DNA from: Candidatus Methanimicrococcus labiotermitis
GTDB taxonomy: Archaea; Halobacteriota; Methanosarcinia; Methanosarcinales; Methanosarcinaceae
Reading direction: 5' to 3'
DNA: 43,757 bases
NCBI GenBank assembly: GCA_009784005.1
Contig: WRCE01000014.1
Coordinates: 1 to 43,757 of the forward strand
In this document: positions 20,586 to 27,197 of the stretch, piece by piece
Layout of the letters: every line of letters begins with the position of its first letter
How positions within the stretch are numbered: position 1 is the first letter of the stretch
The notes under the pieces: generated by a model
What the model was told of the DNA's origin: nothing
Seen by the model: only the letters and a program-made list of their open reading frames with translations
The model's database searches: none
Made by a program: the position numbers and the translations under genes

Positions 20586-20858
20586 ATGTGTATTGCGATT
20601 CCGGGAAAAATATCAAAAATAATTTCGGAAAACAAAGCGGAAGTGGACTTCGGCGGCGTTTTTCGAGAAGTCAACTTAGACCTGCTCGGCGGCGCATCTG
20701 AAATAACTGTCGGCAGCCACGTTCTTGTCCATGTCGGCTATGCGATATCGGTCATAACAGAAGAAGAAGCCCGACTGACAATCGAAGCTTTTGATGAGCT
20801 TCTCGCCGCGAATGAGGCTCTTGATGAAGAGAGAGCCCGAATCGAGAATCAGGGATGA
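20586..20858 (+). CDS. hypC: hydrogenase maturation chaperone HypC
   Basis: The 90-residue protein starts with Met-Cys (MCIAIPGKI), the hallmark of HypC/HybG; Cys2 binds the iron of the Fe(CN)2CO unit together with HypD and hands it to the hydrogenase large subunit. GAGGG lies about 9 nt before the ATG. It is the first gene of hypCDABE-cutA. The length is normal and no feature is missing. The likely client here is VhtA, encoded divergently. Confidence 0.96.
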   Translation: MCIAIPGKISKIISENKAEVDFGGVFREVNLDLLGGASEITVGSHVLVHVGYAISVITEEEARLTIEAFDELLAANEALDEERARIENQG

Positions 20859-20965: not shown

Positions 20966-20980
20966 GAAACAGTGATAATT

Positions 20981-22075
20981 ATGGCACGAACAGACCCGTT
21001 TTTAGAAAATCCGGTGGAAATACAGAAGAAATTGGTGGCCGCCATTGCCGCCGACCCGAAACCCGCGCGCATTATGCATATCTGCGGCACCCACGAGCGA
21101 ACGATTGCGAAATACGGTATTCGCAGTCTTCTTCCGGCAGGCATTGAAGTTCTCAGCGGGCCGGGGTGTCCGGTTTGCGTGACGCCTGATGACGACATCG
21201 ACACGGCGATCCTGTTGGCGAAAAAAGGATTGACGGTGATTACATTTGGTGACATGCTTCGTGTCCCGGGAACGGAAGAGAGTTTATTCGATGCCCGCGC
21301 CGAAGGCGCCGATGTCCGTATGGTTTACTCCATTGACGATGCCGTCAAAATCGCGAAAGAGCATCCCGAAAAGGAATTCGTCTTTTTCTCAATCGGTTTT
21401 GAAACAACGATCCCGACAACGGCCGCCGCCGTTTTGCGCGGTTTCCCGCCCAACTTTTCGATTTATACATCATTAAAACTGACGCCTCCGGCGATTGCTC
21501 TTCTGGTTTCGGATATTAACGTTGACGCTTTTATCGCGCCCGGTCATGTCGCCGTCATTACGGGAACCGTGCCTTACAACGATTTCGCGAGAGCCGGATA
21601 TCCGTTCGCTGTCGCCGGTTTTGAATCGTATGACATTCTGCTCGGTATCAAAATGCTTACAGACCAATTGAAAAAAGGAACATCCTTTGTCGAAAACGCA
21701 TACGTCCGCGCTGTCAAAGCCGAAGGGAACGTGATTGCTCAAAAAATGATGAGTGATGTGTTTGACGTCTCCGACGTTGAATGGAGAGGACTGGGCATCA
21801 TCCCCGGCTCCGGCTTGGTTTTAAAAGAGAAATACAAAGAATACGACGCCGGCATCAAATACAAAGAATTGTACGCCCCCGCCCTTGAAAAAATCCGAGA
21901 AATCCGCGCCAAGAAGAAGAAAAACTGCATTTGCGCCGCCATATTAACCGGCAAAGCAACGCCCGCCGACTGCCCGATGTTTGGAAAAACCTGCAAGCCC
22001 GCAAATCCCGTCGGCCCCTGCATGGTCAGCGACGAAGGCATGTGCCACAGTTGGTATAAGTATTGCCGCGACTGA
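20981..22075 (+). CDS. hypD: hydrogenase maturation protein HypD
   Basis: HypD is the 4Fe-4S scaffold on which HypC, HypE and cyanide/CO ligands assemble the iron unit. The family motifs are present: HICGTHE near residue 31, GPGCPVC near residue 64, and a C-terminal Cys cluster (CPMFGKTC ... CMVSDEGMC) that binds the Fe-S cluster. The ATG at 20981 with GTGAT just upstream is preferred; a GTG at 20972 would add three residues. The product has 364 residues, the normal length. The gene ends in TGA, and a purine-rich repeat begins right at the stop codon. Confidence 0.96.
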   Translation: MARTDPFLENPVEIQKKLVAAIAADPKPARIMHICGTHERTIAKYGIRSLLPAGIEVLSGPGCPVCVTPDDDIDTAILLAKKGLTVITFGDMLRVPGTEESLFDARAEGADVRMVYSIDDAVKIAKEHPEKEFVFFSIGFETTIPTTAAAVLRGFPPNFSIYTSLKLTPPAIALLVSDINVDAFIAPGHVAVITGTVPYNDFARAGYPFAVAGFESYDILLGIKMLTDQLKKGTSFVENAYVRAVKAEGNVIAQKMMSDVFDVSDVEWRGLGIIPGSGLVLKEKYKEYDAGIKYKELYAPALEKIREIRAKKKKNCICAAILTGKATPADCPMFGKTCKPANPVGPCMVSDEGMCHSWYKYCRD

Positions 22076-22205: not shown

Positions 22206-22574
22206 ATGCACGAATATTCATTGGCCATCGGTTTGATGGACAGCGTTTTGACGGCAGCTGAAGAAAATAACGCGTCCGTTGTCAATCACATCAATGTCAA
22301 GGTCGGCAAAGCCGCGCATGTCAACCCGACACAGCTGGAATTTTGTTTAAAATCAATCGCAGATGGAACAATTGCCGAAAACGCGCAATATTCTTTTGAA
22401 GCCGTCGACCCCGAAATCAAATGTGACTGCGGTTATGCCGGAAAACCCGATGAAACCGATGACGGATTGGACATTTTGGAATACATAATCTCTTTAAAAT
22501 GCCCGCTTTGCGGCAAAAATGCCGAAATGGCCGGCGGAACGGAACTGTCGGTCGAATCCATTGACATAGACTGA
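22206..22574 (+). CDS. hypA: nickel-insertion protein HypA
   Basis: The 122-residue protein has the invariant N-terminal Met-His-Glu; His2 is the nickel ligand. A zinc site is formed by Cys73, Cys75, Cys99 and Cys102. The first pair is Cys-X-Cys rather than the usual Cys-X-X-Cys, a mild variation. HypA delivers Ni2+ with HypB to the hydrogenase large subunit. GAGGGAAAAC lies before the ATG. The last 49 bp of the gene are duplicated immediately downstream. Confidence 0.95.
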   Translation: MHEYSLAIGLMDSVLTAAEENNASVVNHINVKVGKAAHVNPTQLEFCLKSIADGTIAENAQYSFEAVDPEIKCDCGYAGKPDETDDGLDILEYIISLKCPLCGKNAEMAGGTELSVESIDID

Positions 22575-22621: not shown

Positions 22622-22705
22622 GAAATGCAGGAAAATCATAAACGAAATTATAATAATCAAACTTTAAACAGAAACAAAATAAAAAAACAACAGGAAGACA
22701 AAGAA

Positions 22706-23398
22706 ATGTGGAATATATTGTTAGCGGAAGGGCACATCATTAACATCGGTCATGATGTTTTTAAGGAAAACAGAAAGCTGGCCGACAAAAACAGAGAGAA
22801 ATTGAAAAAGGAAGGCGTTTTTTCCGTTAATATCATGGGCGCGATCGGCTCGGGCAAAACGACTCTGATTGAAGAAGCCATCAAAGCGCTCGGCTCAAAA
22901 TACAAAGTCGCTGTCATTGCCGGCGATGTGATTGCGGATATGGATGCCGCCCGCTTCCTTAAACTCGGCGTCTTAACCATTCCCGCCAACACGGGAAAAG
23001 AATGCCATCTGGACGCGCATATCGTCAGCGACCTGCTCAAAAAGAATGATTTGAACAGCTATGATGTCTTATTCATCGAAAACGTCGGCAACCTGATTTG
23101 CCCCACCGATTTTGATTTGGGCGAAGACATGAAAATCGTCGTTGTCAGTGTCAGCGAAGGCGATGACATCGTTTTAAAACACCCCGTCATTTTCAAAACA
23201 TCCGATTTGGCCGTTATCAACAAAATCGACATTGCAGAAGCCGTTGATGTGAATCCTGACACGATGGTTCGCGACGTCAAATCGCTGAACCCGAAAATCC
23301 CAGTTCTGCTGACCTCAAAGAGACGGGAAGAAACCGTCAAAGAATGGGTGACGGCGATTGAAAACGCAATGCTTGAAAAGAAGGCCGGCAAAAGGTAA
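22706..23398 (+). CDS. hypB: nickel-insertion GTPase HypB
   Basis: The 230-residue GTPase has a P-loop GAIGSGKTT near residue 44, the ENVGNL switch segment typical of HypB and a base-recognition NKID motif. A Cys-His pair in the TGKECH segment is the conserved dimer metal site. It hydrolyses GTP while loading nickel onto the large subunit with HypA. I place the start at the ATG at 22706, where AGGAAG lies upstream and family alignments begin; an ATG at 22625 would add 27 atypical Lys/Asn/Gln-rich residues and lies in the duplicated hypA end. No His-rich nickel store is present. Confidence 0.93.
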   Translation: MWNILLAEGHIINIGHDVFKENRKLADKNREKLKKEGVFSVNIMGAIGSGKTTLIEEAIKALGSKYKVAVIAGDVIADMDAARFLKLGVLTIPANTGKECHLDAHIVSDLLKKNDLNSYDVLFIENVGNLICPTDFDLGEDMKIVVVSVSEGDDIVLKHPVIFKTSDLAVINKIDIAEAVDVNPDTMVRDVKSLNPKIPVLLTSKRREETVKEWVTAIENAMLEKKAGKR

Positions 23399-23554: not shown

Positions 23555-24616
23555 ATGGCAAAAGAGAACAGAATTTCAATGGAGCACGGCGCCGGCGGGC
23601 AGCTCATGCAGTCTTTGATCGGAGAAATCATTTTAAAGAATTTGACAAACACGAAAGCGGGGACTGTCGGTTTGGAATCTTTGGATGACGGGGCGACAAT
23701 TGCGCTGGACCGCTCGTTTTTGTCTGACAATCCAAACGCCGAGCTTGTTATGACAACCGACAGCCATGTCGTTAAACCGATTTTTTTCCCGGGCGGTGAC
23801 ATCGGAAAGGTGGCCGTCTGCGGCGCTGTGAATGATTTAGCCGTCATGGGCGCCAAGCCCCTTGCCGTCAGCAGCGGCATGATTATCCCGGAAGGGTTCA
23901 GTATTACTGATTTGGAAAAAATTGTTCAGTCGATGGATGCCGCGCTCAATGAAATCGGCGTTCCGCTGATTACGGGAGACACAAAAACCATTGAAGGAAC
24001 GGCGTTAGACTCAATTATCATCAATATTGCCGCAATCGGTATCTGTGATGCGCCCGTTCGGGACTGCGGCCTTCGCGCCGGCGATAAAATAATCGTGTCA
24101 GGCTTCATTGCCGACCACGGCATGGCGCTTTTGACCAAACGCGAAGGATTTGAGTTTAACTCTGATTTAGAATCCGACACGGCGCCTCTTTGGAAAATGA
24201 TTGAACCGATTCTTGACGTTAAGACGGCAGACGGGAAACGGGCTGTGACGGCTATGAAAGACCCGACCCGCGGCGGCGTTGCCGATGCTTTGAATGAGAT
24301 GGCGCAGAAAAGCAAAGTTTGTATTCGAGTCTATGAGGAAAAGCTTCCGATTCGCGAAACAGTTCACGTCTCATGTGAAATGCTGGGTTTGGACCCGCTT
24401 GAAATTGCCAACGAGGGAAAAGCAATTATAGGCGTACATCATGATTGTGCTGAATATGTTTTAGGACTGCTTAAACAGCATTCCTACGGAAGAGACGCCG
24501 CCGTCATCGGTGAGGTTGTCGACGAAAAACCCGGCAAAGTGATATTGGTTTCCGCTCTTGGCAGTACCCGTTATGTGGATGTGCCGACGGGGGACCCGAT
24601 TCCGCGCGTCTGTTAA
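23555..24616 (+). CDS. hypE: hydrogenase maturation protein HypE
   Basis: The 353-residue AIR-synthase-like ATPase dehydrates the carbamoyl group on its C-terminal Cys to a thiocyanate, which supplies the cyanide ligands. The N-terminal HGAGGQLM motif and the C-terminal PRVC ending with Cys353 are both present, so it should be functional. GGAAGGAAG lies before the ATG. Its partner HypF, the carbamoyltransferase, is not in the window. The gap to the next gene, cutA, is 52 bp with no terminator, suggesting one transcript. Confidence 0.97.
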   Translation: MAKENRISMEHGAGGQLMQSLIGEIILKNLTNTKAGTVGLESLDDGATIALDRSFLSDNPNAELVMTTDSHVVKPIFFPGGDIGKVAVCGAVNDLAVMGAKPLAVSSGMIIPEGFSITDLEKIVQSMDAALNEIGVPLITGDTKTIEGTALDSIIINIAAIGICDAPVRDCGLRAGDKIIVSGFIADHGMALLTKREGFEFNSDLESDTAPLWKMIEPILDVKTADGKRAVTAMKDPTRGGVADALNEMAQKSKVCIRVYEEKLPIRETVHVSCEMLGLDPLEIANEGKAIIGVHHDCAEYVLGLLKQHSYGRDAAVIGEVVDEKPGKVILVSALGSTRYVDVPTGDPIPRVC

Positions 24617-24668
24617 AAACGCGCAAAAAACGCACAAAACGAACAATCGACAATGGGGAAGAGGAATT

Positions 24669-25013
24669 ATGACAAACGAAAACAATGATTACATTTTGGT
24701 TTATGCCGTCTTCCCGACAAAAAAAGAAGCAGAGCTGATCGCGGAATTCCTGATCGAAAATAAATAGATTGTGTGCGCAAACATCCGAAAGCACAAAGCA
24801 ATCTATATTTGGAAAGGAGAAATATACAAAGAAAAGGAGTACAGAGCCCTTTTTAAGACGCGAGAGGATAAGTGGGAAGAAATCAAAGAAACCATTTTGA
24901 AAAAGCATACCTACGAAGCGCCGGTGATTTTAAAAATCCGTATTGAAGACGCAAACGAGAGCTTCAAAAACTGGGCGGATGAAAACTTAATTGACCGCGC
25001 ATTCGGTTTTTAA
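24669..25013 (+). CDS. cutA: CutA-family protein with one in-frame UAG (possible pyrrolysine)
   Basis: The reading frame has a GAGGAATT ribosome site, an ATG at 24669 and a TAA at 25011-25013; it covers 115 codons, the normal CutA length. Codon 33 is TAG (24765-24767). Both sides are clearly CutA: the first 32 residues form strand 1 and helix 1, and after the TAG come CANI, the IYIWKGEI strand, LFKTRED, and the HTYEAPVI motif. No other stop or frameshift is seen. The TAG falls where CutA proteins usually have Leu, one base from TTG. CutA is a small trimeric divalent-metal-binding protein of uncertain role. Either UAG is read as pyrrolysine, or this is a recent nonsense pseudogene. It closes the hyp operon. 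Confidence 0.85.
24765..24767 (+). other. in-frame UAG codon in cutA
   Basis: The codon replaces a usually conserved Leu at the end of helix 1. The only start-like codon nearby on the 3' side (GTG at 24771) lacks a ribosome site, so separate translation of the second half is unlikely. All 30 complete genes of the window end in TAA (18) or TGA (12). Confidence 0.9.
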
Positions 25014-25027
25014 TATTTTAAAAAAAG

Positions 25028-25056
25028 AAAGGCAAAGAATTTCTTTGCCTTTTTTT
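25028..25056 (+). terminator. terminator of the hyp-cutA operon
   Basis: AAAGGCAAAG and CTTTGCCTTT form a stem 15 bp after the cutA TAA, followed by seven T on the plus strand. Confidence 0.88.
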
Positions 25057-25436
25057 ATAAATCCGAACCGTTCTAATCCTGTTTTGTTTTATAAGTCCGA
25101 TTCTATCTTATTCAATTTTATAAGCCGGATTCATCCTTATTCTGTATTATAAGTCCGATTCTACCTTATTCTGTTTTATAAGCCCGATTCATCCTTATTC
25201 TGTTTTGTTTTATAAGTCCGATTCTATCTTATTCAATTTTATAATCCAGATTCATCCTTATTCTGTATTATAAGTCCGATTCTACCTTATTCTGTTTTAT
25301 AAGCCCGATTCATCCTTATTCTGTTTTATAAGCCCGATTCATCCTTATTCTGTTTTATAAGTCCGATTCTACCTTATTCTGTTTTATAAGTCCGATTCGT
25401 CCGATTCGTCCTTATCTTCCTTATTCTGTTTTCCGC
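25057..25436. repeat. 29-bp minisatellite with higher-order period
   Basis: About 12 units of ttattctgttttataagcccgattcatcc type fill the convergent gap. Variants alternate, and a block of four variants is itself repeated (about 25090-25200 and 25207-25320). The motif resembles the 3' end of the minus-strand gene that stops at 25437 (ttacaagttcaattcttt against ttataagtccgattctac). No gene lies in this 380-bp gap. Confidence 0.9.
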
Positions 25437-27197
25437 TTACAAGTTCAATTCTTTGCCTTTGGGGTATTTGATGGTGTAAACCGTTTTGAAAACTTGGGAG
25501 TCTCCCGGCTGCATTTCAAATTCCCACGCCAAGACGCCGACATCCTCGTTATTGAAAGACGGGGCGGTTGTGTCTTTTGACAGCTCGACCGCGACTTCTT
25601 TGTATGTTGAAATCGGGTAGCGGTCTTTTAAGATCATTTTGATTTTGCGGTTTTGATTGTTCTTCACGGTCATCCGGTAAGCGAATTCTTGTTTGACATC
25701 GCCGCCCAAAAAGCCGCTGCTGCTGTACTCCTTCATCTTCTCGCGCTTGACAGAGACGCGGCGGTCCGTTCCAAGCGTCAGCGAAAGGATTTTTTGAGCG
25801 GACTGCGCGTCGATGTACGTTTCGCCGATAAAAGTCCCGCCGTATGTCACGTTGGCATTGCCGCTGAGCAGGTTCAGCTTTTCCCAATTCGCGATGTCCG
25901 CGAGCAGATAGGTTTCGTGGTCCATCTGCGGGGCGCAGTAATACTTAAATTCAGCCGGTACTTCCTGTTTTTTAAGCTCAATGATTTGCTCTTTGCCGTT
26001 TCCGGGAATCGAATAAGGCAAGTCGATTTCAAAAGAAATGTTCAGCATATCTTCTGATTGTTTGATGAAATCACCCATGCCGCTCTTCAGCGCAACGACG
26101 TAGACGCCGCCGGAAGCTTCGGGGCCATATGTATAAACAGCGGAAGACGCGTCTATGAATTCGACGTTTTTAATCATAGACTGATCAAGCGAAGCGTAAT
26201 AAGAAGCGTTGGCGACAACACCGTCAATGATATAAAGCGGCGCAGCCGGCGCGGACGGCAGGAAGTCAGCGGTTTCTTCGGGACAAGCAACGCATTGGCT
26301 CATCTCTTCGTAAGAATAAGTATTTTGAGCAATCGGCATGGCCGGCGATTTTCGCTTCAGCGACAGCGGCGCCGACGCGGACAAATACTCGGGGACCGGC
26401 TCGGTATAACGCAAAAACCACGCGCTGAAGAGCGGCGCAGCTTTTCCCGCGCTCGGGGCGGCGGTTGATAACGTCACTTTGACTTTTTCCCAATCAATGC
26501 CCGTCACCTGACGCACTTTGGCTTTGGAAGTGATTTGAACGGGTTTGTCGGCATCGGCAACGATGTCGTGGTACGGGTACCAGCCGGCATTGTTCGTAAA
26601 ATAAGTGATTTCCAAATCACATTCGTTGTCGGCGGGGGAGGAGAGGGACAATCTCAAAAGGCCCGATGTCTTGTTATTTTTCAGCGACTTTTGGTCAAAC
26701 TGAGCGGACAGGTCACGAATCATGTCATTCATCTTGTCCGCTTTTTCGCGGTCGGTAAACAATATTTCTTCGAGTTCGCAGGCTTTGGATTTGTAGTAAT
26801 CCATCGTCTGCATCAGCTCATCGACAAAGACGCCGGATTTTTTGAAAACCTTTTGATCAATACTGTTCTGCAAAAAAGAAAGCATGTTTTGATGGATGCT
26901 GATTTGTGTATAAAGCCGGCTCAAATCCTTTTGCTTTTCATTGATTTCATCCTTCAATTTTTGAGCTTCTCCGCTCAGCGCATTTTCTGCCAAATAATCA
27001 ACGGAAAACTCAAAAGACGAAACAATGACGCCGTTCGCCGTTTTAATTTTAAGAGTGTTTTGGTCGATATGCGGGCTTAAACCGCCGACCTGTATTTCAT
27101 TGGTCCCTTTCAGTAAACTCGCTTTTGCCGAATGCGTCAGCTCGGCGCCCCTGAAATAAATAATCGTGTCTTTAATTTGAGATTGAATTTTATCCAT
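25437..27197 (-). CDS. MuiA-like DUF4139 protein with TonB-plug-like insert
   Basis: The 586-residue protein fits the mucoidy-inhibitor MuiA family (DUF4140/DUF4139): an N-terminal beta domain, a coiled coil at about 72-175, then a C-terminal beta domain (about 190-586) ending in a TVYTIKYPKG strand. Inserted at 319-372 is a segment that reads like the plug of a SusC/TonB-dependent receptor, with LYIIDGV, a DAS motif, YG and GGVYVV in the right order. No signal peptide is visible. The combined layout resembles Bacteroidota proteins, suggesting lateral transfer. A GGAGG ribosome site lies 8 nt before the ATG. The function is unknown; the family name comes from a bacterial mucoidy phenotype. 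Confidence 0.85.
   Translation of the reverse strand: MDKIQSQIKDTIIYFRGAELTHSAKASLLKGTNEIQVGGLSPHIDQNTLKIKTANGVIVSSFEFSVDYLAENALSGEAQKLKDEINEKQKDLSRLYTQISIHQNMLSFLQNSIDQKVFKKSGVFVDELMQTMDYYKSKACELEEILFTDREKADKMNDMIRDLSAQFDQKSLKNNKTSGLLRLSLSSPADNECDLEITYFTNNAGWYPYHDIVADADKPVQITSKAKVRQVTGIDWEKVKVTLSTAAPSAGKAAPLFSAWFLRYTEPVPEYLSASAPLSLKRKSPAMPIAQNTYSYEEMSQCVACPEETADFLPSAPAAPLYIIDGVVANASYYASLDQSMIKNVEFIDASSAVYTYGPEASGGVYVVALKSGMGDFIKQSEDMLNISFEIDLPYSIPGNGKEQIIELKKQEVPAEFKYYCAPQMDHETYLLADIANWEKLNLLSGNANVTYGGTFIGETYIDAQSAQKILSLTLGTDRRVSVKREKMKEYSSSGFLGGDVKQEFAYRMTVKNNQNRKIKMILKDRYPISTYKEVAVELSKDTTAPSFNNEDVGVLAWEFEMQPGDSQVFKTVYTIKYPKGKELNL

Follow-up and report, generated by a model that had tools for sequence, protein, structure and literature searches.

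Archaea with a 'Pyl code', in which every TAG codon is pyrrolysine (Pyl), are said to have been described by Kivenson et al. (Science, 2025). In the methyltransferases MtmB, MtbB and MttB the position of the UAG codon is conserved and the Pyl is catalytic. Thg1 of Methanosarcina acetivorans provides the precedent for a Pyl protein that is not a methyltransferase, and readthrough of UAG as Pyl needs no PYLIS element, proceeding with 20-30% efficiency in foreign genes (PMC2933860), in keeping with the first-pass annotation of the locus described here, which had supposed decoding without a dedicated insertion element. A survey of four methanogens yielded 321 candidate ORFs (PMC1242214), and no earlier report of a CutA with pyrrolysine was found in the literature searched.

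The gene considered here is a cutA in a 43,757-nucleotide stretch of DNA (the window) from a Methanimicrococcus species, a methylamine-using member of the Methanosarcinaceae. The preferred reading, with a probability of about 0.8 and drawn from sequence, is that UAG is read as Pyl throughout this genome and hardly used as a stop, and that the TAG at codon 33 of cutA is near-neutral and would be read through.

The cutA frame and its place in the hyp operon

The features of the locus are as follows.

20586-20858, plus strand: hypC (PF01455)
20972-22075, plus strand: hypD (PF01924)
22206-22574, plus strand: hypA (PF01155)
22625-23398, plus strand: hypB (TIGR00073)
23555-24616, plus strand: hypE (TIGR02124)
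24661-24664, plus strand: ribosome binding site GAGG, with the ATG 4 nt further on, seen in the sequence
24669-25013, plus strand: cutA with in-frame TAG, 114 amino acids and then TAA, Pfam CutA1 match spanning the TAG
24764-24807, plus strand: predicted RNA hairpin with the UAG in its 5' arm (folding z -2.85 and -3.6 in two runs)
24765-24767, plus strand: in-frame TAG, codon 33, predicted pyrrolysine
about 25028-25056, plus strand: terminator-like hairpin and then a T run, seen in the sequence
25437-27197, minus strand: DUF4139/DUF4140 protein, a downstream neighbour kept in the genus mates G010, G011 and G012

Translated with TAG as a residue, the frame contains the single TAG at codon 33 and the terminal TAA. 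The Pfam CutA1 profile (PF03091) covers residues 9-105 across the TAG with 90.7 bits (E 5e-26, cut-off 22.4), a whole-genome search with the CutA1 profile gives this copy 91.3 bits, and the match to NF041095 reaches 104.8 bits, below the strict cut-off of 120. Profile and alignment place coding, homologous sequence on either side of the TAG, bearing out the first-pass description of one CutA frame broken by TAG alone, and the ribosome site and 3' terminator that it had listed are both visible. The AlphaFold model is an ordinary CutA fold (pLDDT 91.7) with CutA structures as its best PDB matches (TM 0.83-0.87 on the query), and codon 33 is predicted to lie in the loop between a helix (residues 18-30) and a strand (residues 36-48). 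Reinitiation was considered at the GTG at 24771, two codons past the TAG, and rejected; this codon is without an obvious ribosome site, as the earlier statement that no restart codon with a ribosome site follows implies, and the product would miss strand 1 and helix 1.

The order hypCDABE-cutA is kept in four genus mates (G010, G011, G013 and G014), and on a contig of the nearest relative, G012, cutA adjoins the same DUF4139 neighbour. On this synteny with the hyp genes the window cutA is the positional orthologue. Imperfect tandem repeats (TTATAAGTCCGATTCTATCTTATTC...) occupy window positions 25060-25436, between cutA and the DUF4139 gene.

Decoding capacity and genome-wide use of TAG

Contig 11 of the same genome carries a gene for tRNA-Pyl (pylT, anticodon CUA) followed by those for PylS, PylB, PylC and PylD, all present and intact, the four proteins scoring 660, 450, 424 and 264 bits, respectively, and all above their NCBIfam cut-offs. 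The pyl genes that the first-pass annotation had proposed to look for elsewhere in the genome are all found, and with a complete cluster and a tRNA-Pyl(CUA) the cutA UAG can be decoded. PylS is over its cut-off in five of the six Methanimicrococcus genomes, and tRNA-Pyl is present in G012, a genome 66% complete. A duplicate release factor was rejected as a contributor; the two eRF1_1 proteins in each genome are taken by length to be one aRF1 and one Pelota, indicating no special factor. A PYLIS-like signal was likewise set aside since the cutA hairpin is absent from the homologues of relatives and RNA structure at the other TAG sites of the genome gives no consistent ranking as structured. The cutA hairpin is probably due to chance.

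The gene immediately before pylT, read from the same strand, is a squalene-cyclase-like (toroid) gene with a weak Pfam match (L061 12157-13014, minus strand, contig 11). In all six Methanimicrococcus genomes this gene shows a TAG, then QL(P/T/A)A and then TGA or TAA, so that the TAG stands five codons before the TGA or TAA, and tRNA-Pyl follows the gene in the five genomes whose sequence extends far enough. The 15 nt ACGCTTTAGCAGCTG around the TAG are the longest invariant block of the gene and its flank, the next being 8 nt. Outgroup toroid proteins have mostly Gly at this site, or else His, Arg or Ala, with several more residues after it. This TAG could encode a conserved Pyl close to the C terminus, serve as a conserved UAG stop or belong to an element that contains it by chance, making the gene a candidate conserved Pyl protein or a candidate regulated UAG beside the pyl cluster; as a lead it may be worth more than cutA.

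Stop usage was sampled in 488 kb (29% of the genome) holding 326 gene-like ORFs, which end in TGA (176), TAA (142) or TAG (8). As 8.3% of the stop triplets in these 488 kb are TAG, about 27 TAG ends are expected. In six of the eight cases the frame goes on past the TAG as a long coding extension; these are mtbB, mttB and the genes for a METTL5-like methyltransferase, an M50 protease, an RHS giant and one adhesin-like protein. The other two are a low-complexity ORF and the toroid gene upstream of pylT, leaving at most 1-2 genuine TAG stops in the 326 genes. Further TAG-interrupted genes are those for CutA, AroC and a second adhesin-like protein. At least six non-methyltransferase genes besides cutA thus carry an in-frame TAG (AroC, METTL5-like, M50 protease, RHS giant and the two adhesin-like genes). 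The RHS-type giant is predicted to be 3060 amino acids long with its TAG at codon 1718 (L067 4323-13505, minus strand, contig 4). The same scan for TAA and TGA in the 488 kb returns ten matches, all of them adjacent in-frame genes or low-complexity or repeat tails, and no genuine interrupted gene. With cutA and the two methyltransferases left out, interruptions by TAG and by TAA or TGA therefore stand at six to none, which argues against decay or sequencing error, both of which would favor TAA and TGA together over TAG.

This count bears directly on the reading that base 24766 is a sequencing or assembly error and that the true codon is TTG (Leu). The TAG is one base from TTG and comes from a single draft genome, but errors would yield TAA or TGA at least as often and none is seen in the 488 kb against at least six independent TAGs, and the nearest relative has CTT rather than TTG at codon 33. 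An error at this base is thus very unlikely.

The chorismate synthase gene aroC is single-copy and has its TAG at codon 66, the profile match running across it with 456 bits (L076 1249-2364, plus strand, contig 16). Among 106 Methanosarcinaceae genomes aroC shows two TAGs, the second at another position in the distant relative G024, and one TAA, the TAA being in the sister genome G012. Aromatic amino acid synthesis is reported missing in most of this gut clade (PMC11362671), and with the TAA of the sister this makes AroC an imperfect witness; as sole proof of decoding it was set aside because of that TAA.

Across the 149 Radical SAM matches of the genus there is one internal stop, a TAG, and small samples from four further genomes (G010, G032, G024 and G074) likewise avoid TAG as a stop. 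In Methanimicrococcus the triplets TAG/CTA reach 0.12-0.22 of their expected number in every frame, compared with 0.40-0.53 in other Methanosarcinaceae, a 5-fold against an about 2-fold depletion, and part of the rarity of TAG as a stop is therefore not due to decoding. UAG as a sense codon for pyrrolysine is the best reading for the source organism, and cutA is perhaps one of some 30 TAG-containing genes in the genome. With TAG as a sense codon, standard gene calling truncates real genes such as cutA, aroC and those for proteases and adhesins.

Codon 33 in relatives and the second cutA copy

Codon 33 is Leu in all five genus orthologues (CTT, CTT, TTG, TTG and TTG), and Leu occupies the site in at least 90% of 34 CutA family sequences, in agreement with the first-pass remark that the TAG sits at a usually-Leu position. 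Conservation of the TAG, which the same annotation had proposed to check by alignment, is not seen; no relative has a TAG at this site of its cutA. Among 100 Methanosarcinaceae genomes cutA shows two internal TAGs and one TGA, the latter in a truncated match. An independent TAG occurs in the cutA of the distant Methanosarcinaceae genome G032, at a variable position close to the C terminus (L039 5594-5889, plus strand). All the TAGs inspected closely (cutA, the G032 cutA, the linker of the M50 protease and the G024 AroC) are unconserved, as a rare and almost neutral sense codon should be.

A second, uninterrupted cutA is located on contig 13, away from any hyp context (L033 5276-5617, minus strand), and among the six genus genomes is present in this one only. 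It has Lys (AAA) at the site of codon 33, which suggests that a long lysine-type side chain is tolerated there. The steps of the preferred reading, readthrough of a near-neutral TAG, would then be that a point mutation of a Leu codon (TTG differs from TAG by a single base) gave the TAG in the hyp-operon cutA; that Pyl-tRNA(CUA) competes with the release factor at UAG across the genome with no dedicated signal; and that readthrough would give full-length CutA with Pyl in the loop that joins helix 1 to strand 2, at a site accepting a long lysine-type side chain so that the change is near-neutral, with a truncated CutA of 32 residues perhaps also made. Insertion of Pyl into CutA and its efficiency are deduced from the gene and its genome rather than from the protein.

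A Pyl that is functional and selected in CutA, for example by acting as a ligand for metal or as an electrophile, or by switching the CutA level according to pyrrolysine supply, might be suspected from the placement of the gene in a hydrogenase-maturation operon and from the UAG within a predicted hairpin. The site however is a loop and not an invariant motif, none of the five genus orthologues has the TAG, that of G032 arose independently at a different and variable position, and the hairpin is neither shared by relatives nor matched by consistent structure at other TAG sites. The Pyl is probably not functional, codon 33 looks near-neutral, and selection for Pyl here is barely credible. Hardly more plausible is that the UAG acts as a gauge of pyrrolysine supply, full-length CutA being made from the hyp operon only when Pyl is available and the paralogue serving as the constitutive form; were this so, metal handling and hydrogenase maturation would be tied to methylamine use.

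The intact paralogue also means that the hyp-operon cutA is possibly dispensable, and so keeps alive the reading of a fresh pseudogene, in which a recent nonsense mutation inactivates this copy, the paralogue masks the loss and readthrough is incidental. The lack of the TAG in any relative fits such an origin, as do the 13 nonsynonymous against 12 synonymous changes inferred on the window branch after the TAG. Against it, dN/dS between the window copy and G012 comes to 0.05 for the part preceding the TAG and 0.15 for the part following it, values which, like the 0.15 and 0.36 of the same two parts in the uninterrupted pair of G012 and the paralogue, are calculated with dS near saturation. By this comparison the window cutA shows no relaxation of constraint confined to the part downstream of the TAG, and the gene has no indel and no other stop, so that the downstream decay raised in the first-pass annotation is not observed. 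By protein distance the paralogue falls outside the pair of window copy and G012, at a poorly supported fork, implying that the two copies have probably coexisted for long, and decay predicts the opposite of a genome whose interruptions are TAG only, with no TAA or TGA. Synteny with the hyp genes and purifying selection on either side of the TAG argue against an old pseudogene, and a fresh one is weakened to the point of being unlikely.

The first-pass annotation had offered a new Pyl protein or a fresh pseudogene. Its premise that the UAG is decodable stands with the full pyl set, its second branch is weakened as set out above, and the notion of a special Pyl protein is not supported, since the TAG is unconserved, other ordinary genes carry TAG and TAG is hardly a stop. 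The better reading is that drift placed a genome-wide sense codon in cutA.

Comparison with known systems

CutA is added to the few ordinary proteins for which pyrrolysine is predicted, and is most likely a new example of known decoding rather than a new kind of protein. The wider meaning is that TAG behaves as a sense codon genome-wide in Methanimicrococcus, an abundant genus of arthropod-gut methanogens. The mtbB and mttB genes of the source genome carry an in-frame TAG, and the cutA UAG would be decoded by the same tRNA-Pyl and PylS as those of MtmB, MtbB and MttB; the difference is that their UAG keeps its position around a catalytic residue, whereas that of CutA is not conserved. Thg1 is similar in that a single lineage with pyl genes acquired an amber codon in a conserved housekeeping gene and the Pyl is not expected to be necessary for activity, and differs in that its Pyl has been physically observed, while CutA is known from its gene. 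The 'Pyl code' archaea resemble this genome in hardly ever ending genes with TAG, in carrying in-frame TAG across unrelated genes and in having a complete pyl cluster; the case of Methanimicrococcus differs in being drawn from sequence.
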